Source: Nitrospirales bacterium (GTDB lineage: Bacteria; Nitrospirota; Nitrospiria; Nitrospirales; UBA8639). Taken from it: 50,540 nt of DNA. The stretch covers positions 1 through 50,540 of the forward strand of contig WHTE01000006.1 of NCBI GenBank assembly GCA_009377845.1. The letters are read 5' to 3'. Numbering within the stretch: the stretch's first letter is position 1; each line of letters starts with the position of its first letter. Below are positions 315 through 49,773 of the stretch, one piece after another. The notes beneath the pieces were generated by a model that did not search any database, was not told the DNA's origin, and was given only the letters and a program-made list of their open reading frames with translations. The translations under genes and the position numbers were made by a program.

Positions 315-390
315 AGGGGCATAGTGTCAACGGCTAGCACGTCGGTCTCCAAAACCGAAAGTCCGGGTTCGAATCCTGGTGCCCCTGCCA
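315..390 (+). tRNA. trnW: tRNA-Trp (anticodon CCA)
   Basis: A 76-base cloverleaf with a perfect 7-bp acceptor stem (AGGGGCA with TGCCCCT), an anticodon stem TCGGT/ACCGA enclosing CTCCAAA (anticodon CCA), and a T arm CCGGG-TTCGAAT-CCTGG. The 3' CCA is encoded. It lies between rpmG and secE, the conserved place for tRNA-Trp in many bacteria, and is probably co-transcribed with them. Confidence 0.96.
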
Positions 391-42645: not shown

Positions 42646-43812
42646 ATGAAGACCCCTTTGTACTCGAATCAAATTCCGGTTTCTTTAGGAAATCGGAGCT
42701 ATGAAATCTTGATCCAACCTAATATTCTGACTCAGATTGGCCGTGTGCTCCAAGACATTGGATTATCCGGCCGAGTGGGCATTGTGACCAATCCGGTCGT
42801 CAATGAGCTCTATGGCCGGGTGGTCCACCGGTCATTAAAACAGGCCGGGTTTTCTCCATTTCTCGTGGTGATTCCCGATGGAGAGCAAGCCAAATCGGTG
42901 CACTGGCTGTCAAAAATATTGGATGCACTTGTGACTCAACGATTTGAACGGCAGGATGTGGTGTTGGCTTTAGGTGGGGGGGTCGTGGGAGATGTGGCAG
43001 GATTTGCAGCCTCCGTGTACCTGCGCGGTGTCCCATTTGTCCAAGTACCGACTACCTTGGTGGCGCAGGTGGATTCCAGCGTGGGTGGCAAAACAGGGGT
43101 CAACCATCCTATAGGGAAAAATTTGATAGGAGCGTTTTATCAGCCATGTGTCGTGGTGATTGATCCACAGGCGTTGCAGACTCTTCCAAAACGTGAATGG
43201 GTAGCGGGATTAGCGGAAGTGATTAAGTACGGCATGATTGCCGATTCCCAGTTCTTTGAATATTTAGAACGACATGTTGAAGGACTGCGTGCGCAAGCAG
43301 AGGAAGTGATCCCCACCGTGATTCGGCGATGTTGTGAAATAAAAGCTGAGGTGGTGGGGGGAGATGAACGAGAGTCCGGACGCCGACGCATTCTGAATTA
43401 TGGTCATACCGTGGGCCATGCGCTGGAAACCTGGGGTCATTATAAAACATGGATTCATGGAGAAGCGGTGGGAATTGGCATGGTGCAGGAAGCCGAGATC
43501 GCCCGGTTTTTGGGAATGTGTGACAAGGAGCTTGTGGAACGGCAACGTGATCTGATTCAGGATGTGGGATTGCCCATTGCCATGCCCTCCATGAAATTTA
43601 TGGATCTCTGGGGAGCCATGCAACACGACAAAAAGGTCGTAAAAGGTCAAATAAATTGTGTGGTGCCCAAAAGAATCGGTGACGTCCAGGTCGTTCCTCT
43701 GGTTCGACAGCATATTCGTCAATGGTTTGCAACCAGTCAGGTCTCTCGTGCGAAACGATTGAAGCCGGTTCCACAGGCGTTGACACGTCCACGTCCACAC
43801 AAGAAAAAATAA
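42646..43812 (+). CDS. aroB: 3-dehydroquinate synthase
   Basis: 388 residues. NAD-binding G-G-G-V-V-G-D-V-A-G-F-A-A, then R-G-V-P-F-V-Q-V-P-T-T-L-V-A-Q-V-D-S-S-V-G-G-K-T-G and the zinc ligands Glu in the L-A-E-V-I-K region, His in N-Y-G-H-T-V-G-H-A and His in W-I-H-G-E-A-V. Makes 3-dehydroquinate from DAHP. The C-terminal 20 residues form a basic tail (R-P-R-P-H-K-K-K). The next gene starts two bases later. Confidence 0.96.
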   Translation: MKTPLYSNQIPVSLGNRSYEILIQPNILTQIGRVLQDIGLSGRVGIVTNPVVNELYGRVVHRSLKQAGFSPFLVVIPDGEQAKSVHWLSKILDALVTQRFERQDVVLALGGGVVGDVAGFAASVYLRGVPFVQVPTTLVAQVDSSVGGKTGVNHPIGKNLIGAFYQPCVVVIDPQALQTLPKREWVAGLAEVIKYGMIADSQFFEYLERHVEGLRAQAEEVIPTVIRRCCEIKAEVVGGDERESGRRRILNYGHTVGHALETWGHYKTWIHGEAVGIGMVQEAEIARFLGMCDKELVERQRDLIQDVGLPIAMPSMKFMDLWGAMQHDKKVVKGQINCVVPKRIGDVQVVPLVRQHIRQWFATSQVSRAKRLKPVPQALTRPRPHKKK

Positions 43813-43813
43813 C

Positions 43814-45067
43814 ATGGCTCAGGCCCGCCATTCGACAACGGAAGAACTGAAGCACCTCGTTCGAGAAAGGATACGGGAGGTGCAGATTCTTCATCGGATC
43901 AGCGAATCCATTAGTAGCACCTTGGAGCTGGAAACGGTGTTAAAACAAATTGTGGAGGTGGTGGTTGAAGTCACGAAGGGTGATGCCTGCTTGCTGTATT
44001 TGATTTCTGAAGCAACGGATGAACTCATTCTTCGTGCCTCGAAAAATCCCCATCCCCGGCTCATCGGGCGGATATCCATAGGATTGGGAGAAGGGATTAC
44101 CGGGTGGGTGGCACGAGAAAAAGTCCCGGTGGTGATTTCTCGAAATGCGAGCGATGACGCCAGATTTAAGTTTTTTCACCGTCTGCCGGAAGATCGATAC
44201 CAGGCCTTTGTGTCAGTCCCGATTATGAGTAAAGGGGAAATAGTCGGAGTCATCAATGTGCAGCATAAGCGGCCCAAGCGGTATGCCGAAGAGACGCTGG
44301 CCCTCTTACTCACTATTGCTAATCAGGTGGGTGGAGCGATTGCCAATGCCAGACTCTATGATGACATGCGGCAGAAAGCCCGTCGTCTGGAAACCCTTTC
44401 CCAGGTTTCGGAAACGGTGGCCTCTAATCGATTGATAGAGGATGTTCTGCAATTAATCGTCACCATGACGGCCCAGCTGATGAATTCAAAGATTTGCTCT
44501 ATCATGCTTGTCGACCAGGATTCCGGGGAACTTCGTATTGCCGCTACCCAAAGCTTAAGTGATGCCTACCGGCGTAAGCCGCCGTTGAAGATCGGCCAGA
44601 GCATGAGCGGCCGGGCTGTTCAAGATCAACATCCGGTTTATGTCCCGGATGTGACGGCAGAAGGTGGATATTTTTATCGGGATTTGGCTAAACAGGAGGG
44701 ATTACATTCGTTGTTGTCTGTCCCCATGCTTATGAAGGATAACCCGATAGGGGTTATTAATGTGTACACCTCCAGTTATCATGCGTTTTCAGATGAAGAG
44801 GTCAAAACACTACAAGCCATTGCGAATCAATCAGCGGTCGCCATTGAGCATACCCGACTCATGGAAAAATCTTTTGAGATGCAAGAGGCACTGGAAGTGC
44901 GAAAATTGGTTGAGCGCGCCAAAGGGTTTTTAATGGCGTCAAAGGGACTTTCAGAACCTGAAGCGTTTCGTCTCATGCAGCGACAAAGCATGAATCTTCG
45001 AAAATCCATGAGGGAAATCGCGGATGCCATCATTCTTGCTGAGGAACTTCAACGGGCCACTCAGTAG
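43814..45067 (+). CDS. GAF-GAF-ANTAR transcription antitermination regulator
   Basis: 417 residues. A short coiled segment (1-25) leads into GAF 1 (about 25-170; G-E-G-I-T-G-W-V-A and F-V-S-V-P-I-M), a helical linker, GAF 2 (about 195-345; G-Q-S-M-S-G-R-A-V and L-L-S-V-P-M-L), then a C-terminal ANTAR domain (about 358-413) with A-L-E-V-R-K-L-V-E-R-A-K-G-F-L-M, L-S-E-P-E-A-F-R-L-M-Q-R and M-R-E-I-A-D-A-I. ANTAR domains bind paired RNA hairpins to prevent termination; GAF domains usually sense a ligand, unknown here. A matching RNA site lies directly downstream (45150-45228), before nadE. It follows aroB by one base and is probably co-transcribed with it. Confidence 0.92.
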   Translation: MAQARHSTTEELKHLVRERIREVQILHRISESISSTLELETVLKQIVEVVVEVTKGDACLLYLISEATDELILRASKNPHPRLIGRISIGLGEGITGWVAREKVPVVISRNASDDARFKFFHRLPEDRYQAFVSVPIMSKGEIVGVINVQHKRPKRYAEETLALLLTIANQVGGAIANARLYDDMRQKARRLETLSQVSETVASNRLIEDVLQLIVTMTAQLMNSKICSIMLVDQDSGELRIAATQSLSDAYRRKPPLKIGQSMSGRAVQDQHPVYVPDVTAEGGYFYRDLAKQEGLHSLLSVPMLMKDNPIGVINVYTSSYHAFSDEEVKTLQAIANQSAVAIEHTRLMEKSFEMQEALEVRKLVERAKGFLMASKGLSEPEAFRLMQRQSMNLRKSMREIADAIILAEELQRATQ

Positions 45068-45079
45068 GAAGCCCTTATG

Positions 45080-45100
45080 GGATTCATGAAGAAGGAATCC
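45080..45100 (+). other. Inverted repeat after the ANTAR gene
   Basis: GGATTC (45080-45085) and GAATCC (45095-45100) form a 6-bp stem with a nine-base loop, 13 bases after the antiterminator gene stop. No U run. It lies upstream of the nadE promoter, so it may be a 3'-end hairpin or an operator. Confidence 0.35.
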
Positions 45101-45114
45101 TGGTGAGTGGTGGT

Positions 45115-45143
45115 TTGAACGGGTTCTTAAGCACTTGTATAAT
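45115..45143 (+). promoter_or_regulatory. Strong sigma70 promoter for the nadE leader
   Basis: TTGAAC (45115-45120), a 17-base spacer and a perfect TATAAT (45138-45143). The predicted start, about 45150, coincides with the first base of hairpin P1, so the transcript would open directly with the antitermination site. Confidence 0.75.
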
Positions 45144-45148
45144 GCCTT

Positions 45149-45205
45149 GAGGAGCGACAACGAAGTCTTCCTTTAAAATTTGGCTCAAAAGGACAATGGC
45201 GTCCT
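45149..45205 (+). promoter_or_regulatory. Dual-hexaloop ANTAR-binding RNA site (P1 and P2)
   Basis: P1: GGAGCGAC (45151-45158) and GTCTTCC (45165-45171) pair with one bulged C around hexaloop AACGAA. P2: AGGAC (45190-45194) and GTCCT (45201-45205) pair around hexaloop AATGGC. Both loops have A at position 1 and G at position 4, the recognition pattern of ANTAR antiterminators, and are joined by an A/U-rich linker of about 18 bases. The 3' arm of P2 is also the 5' arm of the terminator at 45198-45236, so P2 and the terminator exclude each other. Base pairing was worked out by hand. Confidence 0.75.
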
Positions 45206-45236
45206 CGGTTCCGCTGGGACAGAGGACGTTTTTTTT
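45198..45236 (+). terminator. Intrinsic terminator in the nadE leader
   Basis: CGTCCTC (45200-45206) pairs with GAGGACG (45222-45228); inside it GTTCC (45208-45212) pairs with GGGAC (45216-45220) around GCT. Eight Ts follow (45229-45236) and the nadE ATG is at 45240. The 3' arm contains GAGGA, the only ribosome binding site candidate for nadE, so the folded terminator would also hide it. Confidence 0.85.
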
Positions 45237-45239
45237 ATC

Positions 45240-47030
45240 ATGACTTTTCGATTGGCGATGGTCCAGATGAATGCGGTGGTTGGTGACCTTGAAGGAAATG
45301 TGCGTGCCATTTGCCGGTGGATTCGTGAAGCCAGGAAAGCCAAAGCGGATGTGGTGGTCTTCCCGGAATTGGCCGTGTGTGGCTATCCACCAGAAGATCT
45401 TCTCCTCATGCCAAAATTTCTTCTCGATATCAGCCGGATGCGTAACCGTATTGCCAAAGCCACGACCGGGATTATGGCGGTGGTGGGAAGTGTGGTGGAG
45501 CCTGGTCATCTGGCGCACCGTCCCATCCGGGAGCCGTTGCCGGAAGAAAGGAAACCCTTTAATGCGGCTTGGGTCCTGGCAAATGGCCGAATGAAGGGAA
45601 CGTATGCAAAATGCAAGCTGCCAAACTATGGTGTTTTTGACGAAGAACGGTATTTTCAACCGGGAAATACCAGCCCGGTCTATTGTCTGGGCTCGTTACG
45701 GATCGGAATCAATATTTGCGAAGACATTTGGTTTGCTGATGGTCCAGCCAGCATACAAGCTACGCATGGAGGAGCTCACCTGATTTTGAACATCAATGCC
45801 TCACCCTATCACGTCGGGAAAACGCAAAGTCGGGAAGACATGTTGGCGGTCCGAGCGAAGGACAACGACGTGATCGTGAGTTACACCAACATGGTCGGGG
45901 GGCAGGATGAATTGGTATTTGATGGGAATAGTCTCGTACTGGACTCCACCGGTCTGGTGCTCGCAAGGGCGAAAGCCTTTGAAGAAGATCTCTTACTCAC
46001 AGATCTCAGGATTCCGTCGATCCGAAAGCGGATATCCAAAGGTTTTGGAACAGTAACTGGAACCAAAGTCGATGATGTTCGAGTTCCGGGGATCCGCATT
46101 GGGTGGACACCTACGCGTCCAAAGTCTTTAGCTCCTTGTGCCCCAACGATGACCCCGGCAATCGAGGAGTCAGAGGAGATATACCGGGCATTAGTGTTAG
46201 GGGTAAGGGATTATGTGAGGAAGAATGTCTTCTCAAAAGTTCTTGTGGGAATCAGCGGTGGCATTGATTCAGCATTGACAGCAGTTATTGCCCGAGATGC
46301 CTTAGGAGCTTCCAATGTGATGGGTGTGACGATGCCATCTCCCTATACCTCGCAGGAAAGCCGACGGGATTCTCGCCAGTTAGGCAAAAATTTAGGAATT
46401 CGCTTGCTCAATCTTTCGATTGCGAAGATGTTCAAAGTTTTTCTTCGGCTGTTGCGCAAGCCTTTCCAGGGGTGTCAGGCTGATACAACGGAAGAGAATC
46501 TGCAAGCCCGCATTCGAGGCACACTCCTGATGGCCCTCTCCAACAAGTTTGGATATTTAGTGCTGACTACGGGCAATAAAAGCGAAATGAGTGTGGGCTA
46601 TGCCACGCTCTATGGGGATATGGCTGGTGGTTTTGCGGTCATCAAAGACGTTCCAAAAACGAAGGTGTATCAACTCTCTCGATGGCGAACTGAGTACAGG
46701 GGCTCTTTTTTTGAAAGGGTGACCATTCCTGAGAGCATTCAGGTACGTGCGCCTTCGGCTGAGTTAAAGCCAGATCAGATAGATCAGGACACACTCCCGC
46801 CTTATCCTGTGTTAGATGCGATCTTACAAGCCTATGTCGAGGATAATTACTCGAGAAGCAGGATTGTGAAGATGGGCTATGATGCACATGTTGTCCGAAC
46901 AGTCATGGGAATGGTGGATCACAGTGAATACAAGCGTCGACAGGCTCCAGTGGGCATTAAAATTACTCCGAGGGCATTAGGAAAAGACCGGCGGATGCCG
47001 ATTACCAACCGGTATCCTTCAGGAGCCTAA
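45240..47030 (+). CDS. nadE: Glutamine-dependent NAD+ synthetase
   Basis: 596 residues from ATG 45240; an in-frame TTG at 45180 would lie in the leader hairpins and is rejected. N-terminal nitrilase-type glutaminase (about 1-270) with Glu in F-P-E-L-A-V-C-G-Y-P-P, Lys in Y-A-K-C-K-L-P-N-Y and Cys in I-N-I-C-E-D-I-W. C-terminal ATP-pyrophosphatase domain with G-I-S-G-G-I-D-S-A and T-T-G-N-K-S-E-M-S-V-G-Y-A. Amidates deamido-NAD+ using glutamine nitrogen and ATP. The leader suggests control by antitermination. glnD follows. Confidence 0.95.
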   Translation: MTFRLAMVQMNAVVGDLEGNVRAICRWIREARKAKADVVVFPELAVCGYPPEDLLLMPKFLLDISRMRNRIAKATTGIMAVVGSVVEPGHLAHRPIREPLPEERKPFNAAWVLANGRMKGTYAKCKLPNYGVFDEERYFQPGNTSPVYCLGSLRIGINICEDIWFADGPASIQATHGGAHLILNINASPYHVGKTQSREDMLAVRAKDNDVIVSYTNMVGGQDELVFDGNSLVLDSTGLVLARAKAFEEDLLLTDLRIPSIRKRISKGFGTVTGTKVDDVRVPGIRIGWTPTRPKSLAPCAPTMTPAIEESEEIYRALVLGVRDYVRKNVFSKVLVGISGGIDSALTAVIARDALGASNVMGVTMPSPYTSQESRRDSRQLGKNLGIRLLNLSIAKMFKVFLRLLRKPFQGCQADTTEENLQARIRGTLLMALSNKFGYLVLTTGNKSEMSVGYATLYGDMAGGFAVIKDVPKTKVYQLSRWRTEYRGSFFERVTIPESIQVRAPSAELKPDQIDQDTLPPYPVLDAILQAYVEDNYSRSRIVKMGYDAHVVRTVMGMVDHSEYKRRQAPVGIKITPRALGKDRRMPITNRYPSGA

Positions 47031-47073
47031 CAAGGATGTGTGTCATGATCAGCATTACCGGGAGTTACATTCG

Positions 47074-49773
47074 ATGAGCGCAAGCAATTCTTTTACCCCT
47101 ACGTTTTTTACGGACCCCAAGGCTTCCTCAATGGGCCTCCATGTTCTTCAGGAACAACGGGAGATCCTGCAGCATCGATTGATGGATGGAGTGACCGGCG
47201 GTGAGATCACTCAAGCATTCTCTGATTTTATGGATGCCTTGCTGATCGCCCGGTTTCGGGAGGTGATTCAGCAAGGCAATGCTGGTGTGCGAGCCGGATG
47301 GCAGCAGTGTTGCTTGGTGGCGATGGGGGGATATGGGCGTCGGGAATTAGCACCGTATTCGGATATTGATGTCATGGTATTAACCCAGGGTAACCAACAG
47401 GAAGTCGCTCAGGCCCTTTCCACTGGAGTCTTCCACCGGCTGTGGGACCTGGGTTTTCAAGTTGGCCATAGTGTCCGGTCTATTGTGGAATGTCTGACGA
47501 TTGCGGAGACCGATTTGGTTGCTTGCACCTCGCTGATGGAATCCCGGTTTCTTGTTGGCAGTGCTCCCGTGTTCCAGGAATTTCAGAGAAAATTCGACCG
47601 TCGGATCGTCAAGAAAAAGTCGCAGCGATTTATTCTCGATAAAATCGAAGAGCGCGAACGAGAGTATGCCAGATTTGGCGAGACCGTCTTCATGCTTGAA
47701 CCGAATATTAAAAAAAGTAAGGGCGGGCTCCGGGATGTGCATCTTCTGCAATGGGTTGGCCACGCCCGGTATGGGGCGGGGACGATTCAGGAACTATCGA
47801 ATCGGGGATTGATGGCCATTCAGGATTATCAGGTGTTACAGGAAGCGCAAGAATTTCTCTGGCGGGTTCGGTGTTTTTTACATTTTGAGGCGGGACGGGC
47901 TCAGGATATTCTCACGTTTGACGACCAGGTCCGGCTCTCTGCGCAATGGGGATTTGTGGATCATCCCCATTTGTTGGCGGTTGAGCAATTTATGCAGGTG
48001 TATTTCCGTCATACGACCGGTCTGTTTGACCGTTGTGGCCGGTTTCTTGATCAAGCCAGGGAGGTAAGCTGGTGGAACCGGGTTAGACGATGGTGGCCTC
48101 CCCCCTTGATTGAGGGGCACTTCCGTATCCTGGAAAACCGGCTGACCATTCAGCCGGATAAATTGCTCGAGGTCCTGGAGAGCCCCATATTGCTCCTCAG
48201 GTTGTTTGTGGTCTCTCATCGTCAAGCAGTCCTCATCGATTCCCGCATCCTGAATGAATTGTCACAGCACATGGGAACCATACCCAATGAACGGTTTCAT
48301 ACTGAACAGGTGAGTGGGTTATTTCGAGAAATTCTTTCAAACCCTGGTCGAATTGCTCAAACTCTTGAGGCCATGCACCAGGCTAGCCTGCTGGAAAAGT
48401 TGGTGCCGGCTTTTTCCCGGGTGCGGGGGCTCATGCAATTCAATCAATATCATAAATACACGGTCGACGAGCACAGTCTGCTCGCGGTGAGGGAAGCAGA
48501 GCGTCTCCAGGATCATCCAGGGAAGATAGGAGACATTTACCGGAACATTCCCGATAAAGACCTTTTGCATCTGGCCTTGTTGCTACATGATTTAGGAAAA
48601 GGACGTCCCGGGGATCATAGTGAAGTGGGTCAGGAGATTGCCCACAAAACCGCTGATCGGTTGGGATTATCCGAGAAGGAGCGGCAGGTCCTCGCCTTCC
48701 TTGTCTATCACCATCTGCAGATGTCCCATACGGCATTTCGTCGAGACCTCAACGATCCCAAAATTATTTTAACCTTCGCCCGCATGGTGAAGACCGTCGA
48801 TGTGCTACAGAAAATGTTCATTCTGACCATTGCAGATATTTCAGCGGTGGGACCTGAGGTGATGACGAAATGGAAAGAGGCCTTGTTGTGTGAACTGTAT
48901 TCCCAGACCTACGCAGAACTTGTGGGTGGGAAAGGTCCTTCTGCTAATGGGAAGGAGAATCTTCAGCCGGCCGCACGAGACGAACTCATCGCGATCTTAA
49001 CGAGGCACCGAATAGAAGGAGACGCTCATGAATCGGATTGGTCGCAATGGGTGAATGATAGACTTCAACAACTTCCTGCCCGCTATATTCAGTCCACACC
49101 GGTTGATCAAATGGCGGCATATCTCTTAGCCATTCGTTCCCTCCCCTTAAAGCCGACGCATGTGGAGGCAAGATTCAATCAGGCATTAGGTGTTTCGGAG
49201 TATGTGTTGATTACGCATGAACAGGCCAAGCCAGGTATTTTCATGCAAGTGACGGGTGTGTTAGCCGCCATAGGATTGCAGGTATTGGAAGCGCAAATTA
49301 TGACACTCAAGGATGGTACGGTGTGGGATGTGTTTTCGGTATACGATCCGGATTATGAGGAACCGCCACCCGCAAGCCGCTTGGCGGAGGTCTCGCAGGA
49401 GATTCAAGAGGTCGTGGAGGGACGGCAATCAGTTCACCAATTGTTTGAGCGACGACGGCGTATGGCCTTTGGCCGGCCATTTCCCACTGGCCGGCATCCC
49501 ACCGAAGTCCATATCGATCATGAGGTTTCTGATACCTATACGGTGATTGATGTGTTCGCGGATGACAAGCAGGGTTTGCTCTTTGTGATCGCCCGAACGC
49601 TGGTCAGTTTGGACCTGTCGATTCATATGGCGAGGATCGGAACCAGATTAGACCAGGTGGCCGACGTATTTTATGTGACCAATTCGCAGGGAGAAAAAAT
49701 TCTCCCAGGTGAAGGCTGCGAACATATTCAACGCGCCCTTCAAACCGTCGTTGATCAATTCCTGGCTGAGTAA
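47074..49773 (+). CDS. glnD: PII uridylyltransferase/uridylyl-removing enzyme GlnD
   Basis: 899 residues from ATG 47074 (GGGAG nine bases upstream); an in-frame GTG at 47038 is an alternative. N-terminal nucleotidyltransferase G-G-Y-G-R-R-E-L-A-P-Y-S-D-I-D-V with its paired Asp; K-K-S-K-G-G-L-R-D-V-H; a central HD domain L-L-H-D-L-G-K-G-R-P-G-D-H-S; and two C-terminal ACT domains (about from 700) that bind glutamine. It uridylylates PII proteins when glutamine is scarce and reverses this when it is abundant. It follows nadE by 43 bases with no terminator between. Confidence 0.95.
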   Translation: MSASNSFTPTFFTDPKASSMGLHVLQEQREILQHRLMDGVTGGEITQAFSDFMDALLIARFREVIQQGNAGVRAGWQQCCLVAMGGYGRRELAPYSDIDVMVLTQGNQQEVAQALSTGVFHRLWDLGFQVGHSVRSIVECLTIAETDLVACTSLMESRFLVGSAPVFQEFQRKFDRRIVKKKSQRFILDKIEEREREYARFGETVFMLEPNIKKSKGGLRDVHLLQWVGHARYGAGTIQELSNRGLMAIQDYQVLQEAQEFLWRVRCFLHFEAGRAQDILTFDDQVRLSAQWGFVDHPHLLAVEQFMQVYFRHTTGLFDRCGRFLDQAREVSWWNRVRRWWPPPLIEGHFRILENRLTIQPDKLLEVLESPILLLRLFVVSHRQAVLIDSRILNELSQHMGTIPNERFHTEQVSGLFREILSNPGRIAQTLEAMHQASLLEKLVPAFSRVRGLMQFNQYHKYTVDEHSLLAVREAERLQDHPGKIGDIYRNIPDKDLLHLALLLHDLGKGRPGDHSEVGQEIAHKTADRLGLSEKERQVLAFLVYHHLQMSHTAFRRDLNDPKIILTFARMVKTVDVLQKMFILTIADISAVGPEVMTKWKEALLCELYSQTYAELVGGKGPSANGKENLQPAARDELIAILTRHRIEGDAHESDWSQWVNDRLQQLPARYIQSTPVDQMAAYLLAIRSLPLKPTHVEARFNQALGVSEYVLITHEQAKPGIFMQVTGVLAAIGLQVLEAQIMTLKDGTVWDVFSVYDPDYEEPPPASRLAEVSQEIQEVVEGRQSVHQLFERRRRMAFGRPFPTGRHPTEVHIDHEVSDTYTVIDVFADDKQGLLFVIARTLVSLDLSIHMARIGTRLDQVADVFYVTNSQGEKILPGEGCEHIQRALQTVVDQFLAE

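Follow-up and report, generated by a model that had tools for sequence, protein, structure and literature searches.

Known ANTAR systems and the nadE-glnD locus

In ANTAR antitermination systems, a protein with an ANTAR domain (PF03861) is paired with leader RNAs that contain two hairpins, P1 and P2, of at least three base pairs each, with hexaloops carrying A at position 1 (A1) and G at position 4 (G4), and the 3' arm of P2 serves as the 5' arm of an intrinsic terminator. We analyzed a stretch of 50,540 nucleotides (nt) of DNA from a Nitrospirales bacterium of the phylum Nitrospirota, referred to here as the window, and found all of these elements in front of nadE and glnD, next to a gene for a GAF-GAF-ANTAR protein. 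The locus is very probably an ANTAR antitermination switch of nadE-glnD that is worked by this neighbouring protein and that belongs to a nitrogen regulon. NasR of Klebsiella senses nitrate through a NIT domain, whereas the protein in the window has a tandem GAF input and is predicted to serve many operons.

Published work is cited by PMC number, and what is said of it refers to the sections of each paper available to us. It is established that other bacteria place nitrogen genes under ANTAR control, among them the genes of P-II and of transporters for ammonium, urea and nitrite (PMC3369931). The NasR-nasF system of Klebsiella is like the window in having sensor and ANTAR domain in one protein, a leader hairpin with A1 and G4, and a nitrogen-assimilation target (PMC3369931). 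EutV of Enterococcus faecalis differs, as it has a receiver domain paired with a histidine kinase in place of the GAF-GAF input found here (PMC3369931). Compared with the known ANTAR RNA set of the same paper, the window is set apart by its targets, nadE and glnD, and by its Nitrospirota host. NAD synthetase is likewise tied to glutamine/PII status by another route, in which NadE-Gln is regulated through the binding of PII; Nitrospirae are one of the phyla for which PII-nadE gene islands are reported (PMC7196632), which makes nadE a plausible nitrogen gene. That control is a protein-protein control of enzyme activity, whereas RNA antitermination is predicted for the window.

The gene order in the window is aroC, aroB (42646-43812), the GAF-GAF-ANTAR gene, a gap of 172 nt, nadE and glnD, and the locus has the following features.

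43814..45067, + strand: gene of the GAF-GAF-ANTAR regulator, 417 residues (Pfam GAF, E 1e-40; ANTAR, E 4e-21)
45115..45143, + strand: promoter TTGAAC-17-TATAAT, predicted start at about 45150 (read directly; 10 of 12 consensus positions)
45150..45172, + strand: hairpin P1, hexaloop AACGAA (A1, G4) at 45159-45164 (fold, weak alone; covariation)
45173..45189, + strand: P1-P2 linker, 17 nt (read directly)
45190..45205, + strand: hairpin P2, the antiterminator, hexaloop AATGGC (A1, G4) at 45195-45200 (fold; near-invariant among relatives)
45198..45236, + strand: intrinsic terminator with eight T (fold z -3.8; pairing across 23 leaders; RNAalifold consensus)
45240..47030, + strand: nadE, NAD synthetase with a glutamine-using CN_hydrolase domain, predicted first controlled gene (NAD_synthase, E 9e-71; CN_hydrolase, E 5e-30)
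47074..49773, + strand: glnD, PII uridylyltransferase, predicted second controlled gene (GlnD_UR_UTase, HD and ACT-like domains)

The list of open reading frames has an earlier GTG start for glnD at 47038.

Leader anatomy and folding

The promoter consists of TTGAAC at 45115-45120, a 17-nt spacer and TATAAT at 45138-45143, and its predicted start is the first base of P1. P1 is built of AGGAG, a bulged C, GAC, the loop AACGAA, GTC and TTCCT, and P2 of AGGAC, the loop AATGGC and GTCCT. The terminator stem at 45198-45230 is formed by GGCGTCCTC and GAGGACGTT with an inner GTTCC/GGGAC, and the T run occupies 45229-45236. An earlier reading made from the letters of the window (the sequence-only reading) had claimed this promoter, both hexaloops with A1 and G4, and a terminator with eight T that reuses the 3' arm of P2, and all three were found by direct reading; its assignment of the adjacent 417-residue open reading frame to a GAF-GAF-ANTAR protein was confirmed by the domain search. 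Two details needed revision. The P1 hairpin is present, with a core stem of GAC/GTC only and an outer stem that lies past the bulge, and three bases (ATC) rather than four separate the T run from the nadE ATG at 45240. A further outer stem around P1 (TTGAG/CTCAA) was set aside, as it would start before the predicted transcript start.

Since the 3' arm of P2 doubles as the 5' arm of the terminator, the two structures are mutually exclusive. The piece at 45190-45238 folds as the terminator at -20.2 kcal/mol (z -3.8; none of 200 shuffles as stable), P2 alone (45190-45208) at -5.7 kcal/mol (z -2.1) and the P1 piece (45152-45175) weakly at -2.8 kcal/mol (z -0.5), while the whole leader (45150-45240) adopts a fold of P1 plus terminator (z -1.95; 9 of 200 shuffles as stable). 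The terminator is far stabler than P2 alone, which is a default-off arrangement. This terminator was missed by a simple terminator scan of the window, an interruption in its stem being the probable reason.

The sequence GAGGA at 45222-45226, about 14 nt before the ATG, is a candidate ribosome site of nadE and lies inside the terminator 3' arm, so the terminator fold might also block translation. Control that is mainly translational, with the 3' arm hiding GAGGA and ANTAR binding freeing it, would suit this position, and actinobacterial ANTAR RNAs overlapping the ribosome site have been reported (PMC8164766). We consider it unlikely to a high degree, since the nadE leaders that were read have a T run after the stem and the nadE match starts 51-218 nt past P2 in 17 sister-family sites, too far for masking in most of them.

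No Rfam family scored above its gathering score at the leader. The sole Rfam match of the window at that score is a tRNA gene at 315-387 (+).

Conservation of the leader at nadE

When named genomes were scanned at the protein level, 41 loci with the regulator were obtained, the closest being from metagenome-assembled genomes of Nitrospirota/Nitrospirales. In 31 of these loci nadE stands beside the orthologous regulator gene, and in all 31 a T tract comes after a P2 hairpin with a purine at position 1, A at 2 and G at 4. The sequence-only reading had named invariant A1 and G4 in relatives as a mark of support; G4 was found in 31/31 loci, and position 1 is A in 25 of them and G in the other 6.

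Across 23 aligned leaders (alignment A1) the terminator is paired in 98.2% of the cells, P2 in 99.1% and P1 in 84.1%, three P1 pairs having changed on both sides. The overlap of P2 and terminator is kept where the gene pair is kept, a test that the sequence-only reading had proposed. Covariation, which it had proposed to look for in all the stems, was found for P1; P2 hardly varies in this alignment (four of its five pairs never do), and its near-invariance in the genus places its pairing beyond a covariation test there. The P1 stem was tested in 76 elements, many from close relatives, for which a T tract was required and duplicates were removed. Outside the GAC/GTC fixed by the pattern, the pairs at depths 1-6 are formed in 83, 82, 75, 59, 57 and 58% of elements, against partner-shuffled means of 66, 61, 44, 39, 38 and 44%. 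With a shuffle that ignores relatedness, the observed pairing was reached in 0 of 1000 shuffles at depths 1-5 and in 5 of 1000 at depth 6. Compensatory change, a feature of known ANTAR systems, is thus observed for P1.

Among 17 close relatives (L032-L045, L047, L049, L068), TTGANN was found 15-19 nt before TANNNT and upstream of P2 in fourteen; the rule was not satisfied in L033, L041 and L044.

Ten of the 41 loci, including the fragment L070, have no nadE beside the regulator. Six of the ten have about 3 kilobases (kb) or more of contig past the regulator, so that the two genes are apart, and the element was found within 250 nt of nadE in three of these (L052, L053, L057). In L055 and L056 the contig ends soon after the regulator and both carry the element at nadE, while nadE was not found in the genome of L071. 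N. moscoviensis, one of the three separated genomes with the element, has some 11 kb between nadE and the ANTAR gene and still keeps the leader, which argues for action in trans. A covariance model built from the nadE leaders, R1, recovers the leader in 20/20 genomes of the genus, a count that is no independent test because those genomes supplied 20 of its 23 training rows.

Several variants of the leader were observed. Upstream of nadE in L051, L054, L069, L072, L077, L079 and L080, P2 and the terminator are kept with no recognisable P1 hexaloop; the P2 loop is AATGGC in L077 and AAAGGC in the other six, and several of these leaders share a AGACGACTC-like stretch in the place of P1. A tandem double gate precedes nadE in L061-L067, at most about 240 nt past the ANTAR gene (alignment A4), in the order P1 (stem TAGCAC/GTGCTA or close to it), P2 with terminator 1, and a second P2-like hairpin with terminator 2. 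The 21 loops of these leaders have G at position 4 throughout and G at position 1 in 18. In L038 (like G012:C121:26319-27569) the ANTAR gene has one in-frame TAG and the nadE leader looks intact.

Co-occurrence with ANTAR proteins

An ANTAR domain was found in 117 of the 295 genomes of the phylum. Within the order, the dual-hexaloop motif with a T tract occurs in 35 of 67 genomes with ANTAR and in 1 of 31 without. A pattern of P2 plus T run was found in 27 of the remaining 32 ANTAR-bearing genomes and, among those without ANTAR, only in G197 (reversed control, 2/63). With both patterns together, an element is present in 62/67 ANTAR-bearing against 1/31 other genomes of the order (P 7e-19), and within genus g7 in 8/8 against 1/31 (P 1e-7), where both P values count genomes as independent, though they are not. 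Neither pattern was found in five ANTAR-bearing genomes of the order (G138, G226, G245, G277 and G312). The 30 P2-plus-T-run loci come from 28 genomes, and 29 of them precede nadE (11), a bbp2 porin (14) or nirC/cynS (4), the single locus with no such target being that of G197.

In genus g7, 31 of the 39 genomes have no ANTAR match and, G197 aside, no elements, which amounts to a natural loss experiment.

The regulator protein

The 417-residue protein is the sole ANTAR match in the window's genome, and a single match was likewise found in each of the 67 ANTAR-bearing genomes searched in the order. Its 26 other aligned orthologues are 60-96% identical to it. These single matches make it very improbable that the leader is a true ANTAR target worked by some other protein, an explanation that draws on the separation of regulator and target in several genomes and on the two ANTAR genes of some more distant genomes of the phylum.

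The ANTAR domain can be aligned with its counterparts in Rv1626, EutV and NasR and, weakly, in AmiR, the NasR structure match being 4akk. Nine EutV residues have been changed singly or in groups, with weakened RNA binding as the outcome (PMC8934654). When these are mapped through the ANTAR alignment with an inferred numbering offset of two, the window protein has the same residue at six of them (R142, K143, E160, M172, N173, R175), a conservative replacement at two (K147 to R, Y164 to F) and S in place of R177, so that the protein retains the conserved RNA-contact residues of ANTAR systems to this extent. The Pfam search of the protein gave no receiver domain, and a EutV-style phosphorylation switch is therefore not expected.

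Among solved structures, PtsP GAF domains are good sequence matches of the first GAF domain (3ci6, E 1.9e-25; 3trc, E 4.5e-20), and NifA-like GAFs are less close. This resemblance to PtsP/NifA-like GAFs makes glutamine or 2-oxoglutarate a reasonable guess for the input. The GAF of EI-Ntr is reported to bind glutamine (PMC4848567), and the first GAF is likened to it purely by similarity (3ci6 and 3trc in sequence; 3ci6_A in fold). Our guess is that the first GAF senses glutamine or a related nitrogen-status signal.

The structure model, which was used at fold level only, has two GAF domains joined by long helices (mean predicted local distance difference test score, pLDDT, 81.7; predicted template modelling score, pTM, 0.53), and its match to 3ci6_A has a template modelling (TM) score of 0.85 by target length. 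Among the 50 fold matches listed, the best are tandem GAFs of cyclases and phosphodiesterases, with query TM of 0.33-0.59. These matches would fit tandem GAFs that answer cyclic nucleotides instead of nitrogen metabolites, an explanation we group with one in which the protein closes the regulon when bound; the group as a whole has a very slight probability. The fold match may merely reflect a shared tandem-GAF layout, and the mutual exclusion of P2 and terminator means that a stabilised P2 opens the switch.

The nitrogen regulon

A total of 64 matches to the dual-hexaloop pattern were found in 41 of the 295 genomes of the phylum, against 2/295 for the reversed control. All of them were assigned, the window's own match and that of G019:C6 coming from separate earlier analyses, and 53 lie at most 2 kb upstream of nitrogen genes: 21 at nadE, 20 at porin-urtABCD, 6 at amt, 4 at bbp2-amt and 2 at nrtA-nrtB-cynS. 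Another six have other or unclear targets (G157:C4, G173:C12, G115:C8, G197:C17, G243 and G165). The last five (G033, G043, two in G061, and G281) have neither a T tract nor a nitrogen gene and were counted as chance. At the amt- and nrt-type sites the T tract is frequently interrupted (as in TTTGTGTTT), and the amt site G179:C1:2272336 lacks four consecutive T. In L196 (G243) and L197 (G165) a dual-hexaloop element was observed directly before sensor-kinase-like and response-regulator-like genes, with urtA about 4.9 kb downstream.

Weaker matches to R1 led to second target sites. In the window's genome, a second element stands at a contig end in front of a bbp2 porin and amtB; on another contig, glnA follows an amtB-like fragment. 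Sister species have an operon bbp2-amtB-glnK-amtB-glnA, and another operon has nirC-nirA behind two elements; in the sister family, nadE frequently heads an operon nadE-amt-glnK-glnD. We did not find nirC in the window's genome, which is 93% complete, in a search run without a positive control.

The nirC leaders of the window's genus (L103, L104, L106, L108, L110 and L112, at about 1500-1850) have two elements, about 170-185 nt apart where this was measured (L114, L116 and L117). The first has a P2 loop of 7 nt (such as AATGGGC), and the second has the P2 loop AAAGGC or AAGGGC with a T run shortly before nirC.

With respect to gene names, representative UrtA, UrtB, UreC, CynS, Amt and GlnA proteins pass curated NCBIfam cut-offs, while P-II, NirC and NirA fall below the equivalog cut-offs, NirC and NirA passing those of Pfam. 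The name NrtA was given on the strength of operon context and a broad NMT1-like match, other gene copies were named by tblastn to the representatives, and the urt-linked porin, which has no Pfam match, carries our own label.

The recurrence of the element points to nadE-glnD as a member operon of a predicted ANTAR-controlled regulon for nitrogen assimilation (amt, glnK, glnA, urt, nrt, nirC-nirA) and not as a special NAD switch. The sequence-only reading had drawn attention to ANTAR control of NAD synthesis; as the main meaning of the switch we rejected this, because the same element fronts many nitrogen operons.

Proposed mechanism

The claim that the leader is a switch paired with the neighbouring protein gained support from the conservation of P2 and T tract, the pairing of the terminator, the covariation of P1 and the co-occurrence with ANTAR, next to which stand the leader anatomy, the mutual exclusion and the target genes. 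By analogy with EutV and NasR, the protein would bind the leader and would activate by antitermination. Transcripts starting at about 45150 would normally end at the terminator, at 45236. When active, the protein would bind the hexaloops of P1 and P2 through its C-terminal ANTAR domain and keep P2 folded, which would deny the 3' arm of P2 to the terminator and let polymerase enter nadE-glnD. It would act in trans on the same element before other nitrogen-uptake and assimilation operons, and a signal passing through the first GAF, which is a guess, would open the regulon under nitrogen shortage. Promoter-level nitrogen control may also operate, as NtrYX homologues are reported in Nitrospirae (PMC9409073).

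Several observations weigh against such a switch. The 68-nt piece 45150-45217, which ends inside the terminator, adopts a fold other than P1 plus P2 (-16.9, z -0.55); P2 would need help to form, as expected for a protein-held P2, and a spurious P2 would look alike. The covariation of P1 and P2 in alignment A1 is modest taken alone (24 of 500 shuffles reach the paired percentage), and six of the 31 nadE loci (L041, L048, L051, L054, L069, L072) have no clear P1 hexaloop by eye. In L058, L059 and L060, the other three of the six separated loci, no element was found within 250 nt of nadE. G197 has an element (G197:C17:157110-157166) and no ANTAR; this site, which does not front a recognised nitrogen gene, may be a relic. 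All genomes of the order without ANTAR belong to one genus, which leaves few evolutionary events behind the co-occurrence. The main departure from the EutV/NasR mode is the linker, which at 17 nt exceeds the 5-12 nt of the eut leaders, in which lengthening to 14 nt impaired induction (PMC3369931).

A plain attenuator or ordinary terminator with coincidental hexaloops would suit some of the observations: promoter-like sites (4 found, 4.6 expected) and terminator-like sites are as such at background in the scan, P1 plus P2 is not the free-energy optimum of the folded fragment, and the near-invariant P2 blocks a covariation test of its pairing within the genus. We regard a plain attenuator as almost certainly wrong, given the excess of pattern matches over the reversed control, the covariation of P1, and the tie of element presence to ANTAR and to nitrogen operons.

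As for the linker of the proposed ANTAR switch, the general ANTAR RNA model has a variable one (PMC3369931). In the 76 elements the distance from the core GTC to GGAC is 15-38 nt, where the pattern admitted 8-38; as outer P1 pairs fall within this distance, it is an upper bound for the linker. In the seven L061-L067 leaders the linker is 0-5 nt. In related genera a recognisable P1 seems to be absent. A P1 that recruits the protein with loose spacing would suit both the long linkers and the P1-less leaders, and the handover model (PMC8934654) is consistent with this.

Novelty and meaning

To our knowledge, little is known of how nitrite-oxidising Nitrospira choose their nitrogen source for assimilation. 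In a search of the main texts of open-licence papers, we found no report of ANTAR control in Nitrospira/Nitrospirae or for nadE. The main text of PMC3369931, in the sections available, does not name Nitrospira, and its supplementary tables may already hold such an entry; the available sections of PMC7602753, PMC9409073 and PMC4395418 make no link between ANTAR and nadE or Nitrospirae. The lineage-wide regulon is the interesting part, within an already known type of ANTAR control. The differences from known ANTAR systems, as predicted from the loci, are the GAF-GAF input, longer P1-P2 linkers, and the P1-less and tandem double-terminator variants.

The recurring element before ammonium, urea and nitrite uptake genes of the relatives looks like a main nitrogen control of these nitrite-oxidising bacteria. 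In a tentative proposal, somewhat less likely than not, the one GAF-GAF-ANTAR protein would read glutamine directly and be the global nitrogen regulator of nitrite-oxidising Nitrospirota. The operons that it would open, mainly through RNA antitermination, are those for ammonium, urea, nitrite, cyanate, glutamine synthetase, PII and NAD synthetase. The rewiring would differ between lineages, in the form of longer linkers, leaders lacking P1, tandem double gates and loss in much of one genus.

With one RNA-binding protein and a recognisable target site, sequence would reveal a large part of the nitrogen regulon in these bacteria, most of which are uncultured, and NAD synthetase joins the likely targets of ANTAR control. 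The leaders would also serve to test how ANTAR recognition copes with long linkers, a lost P1 and a G at position 1 of the loop.

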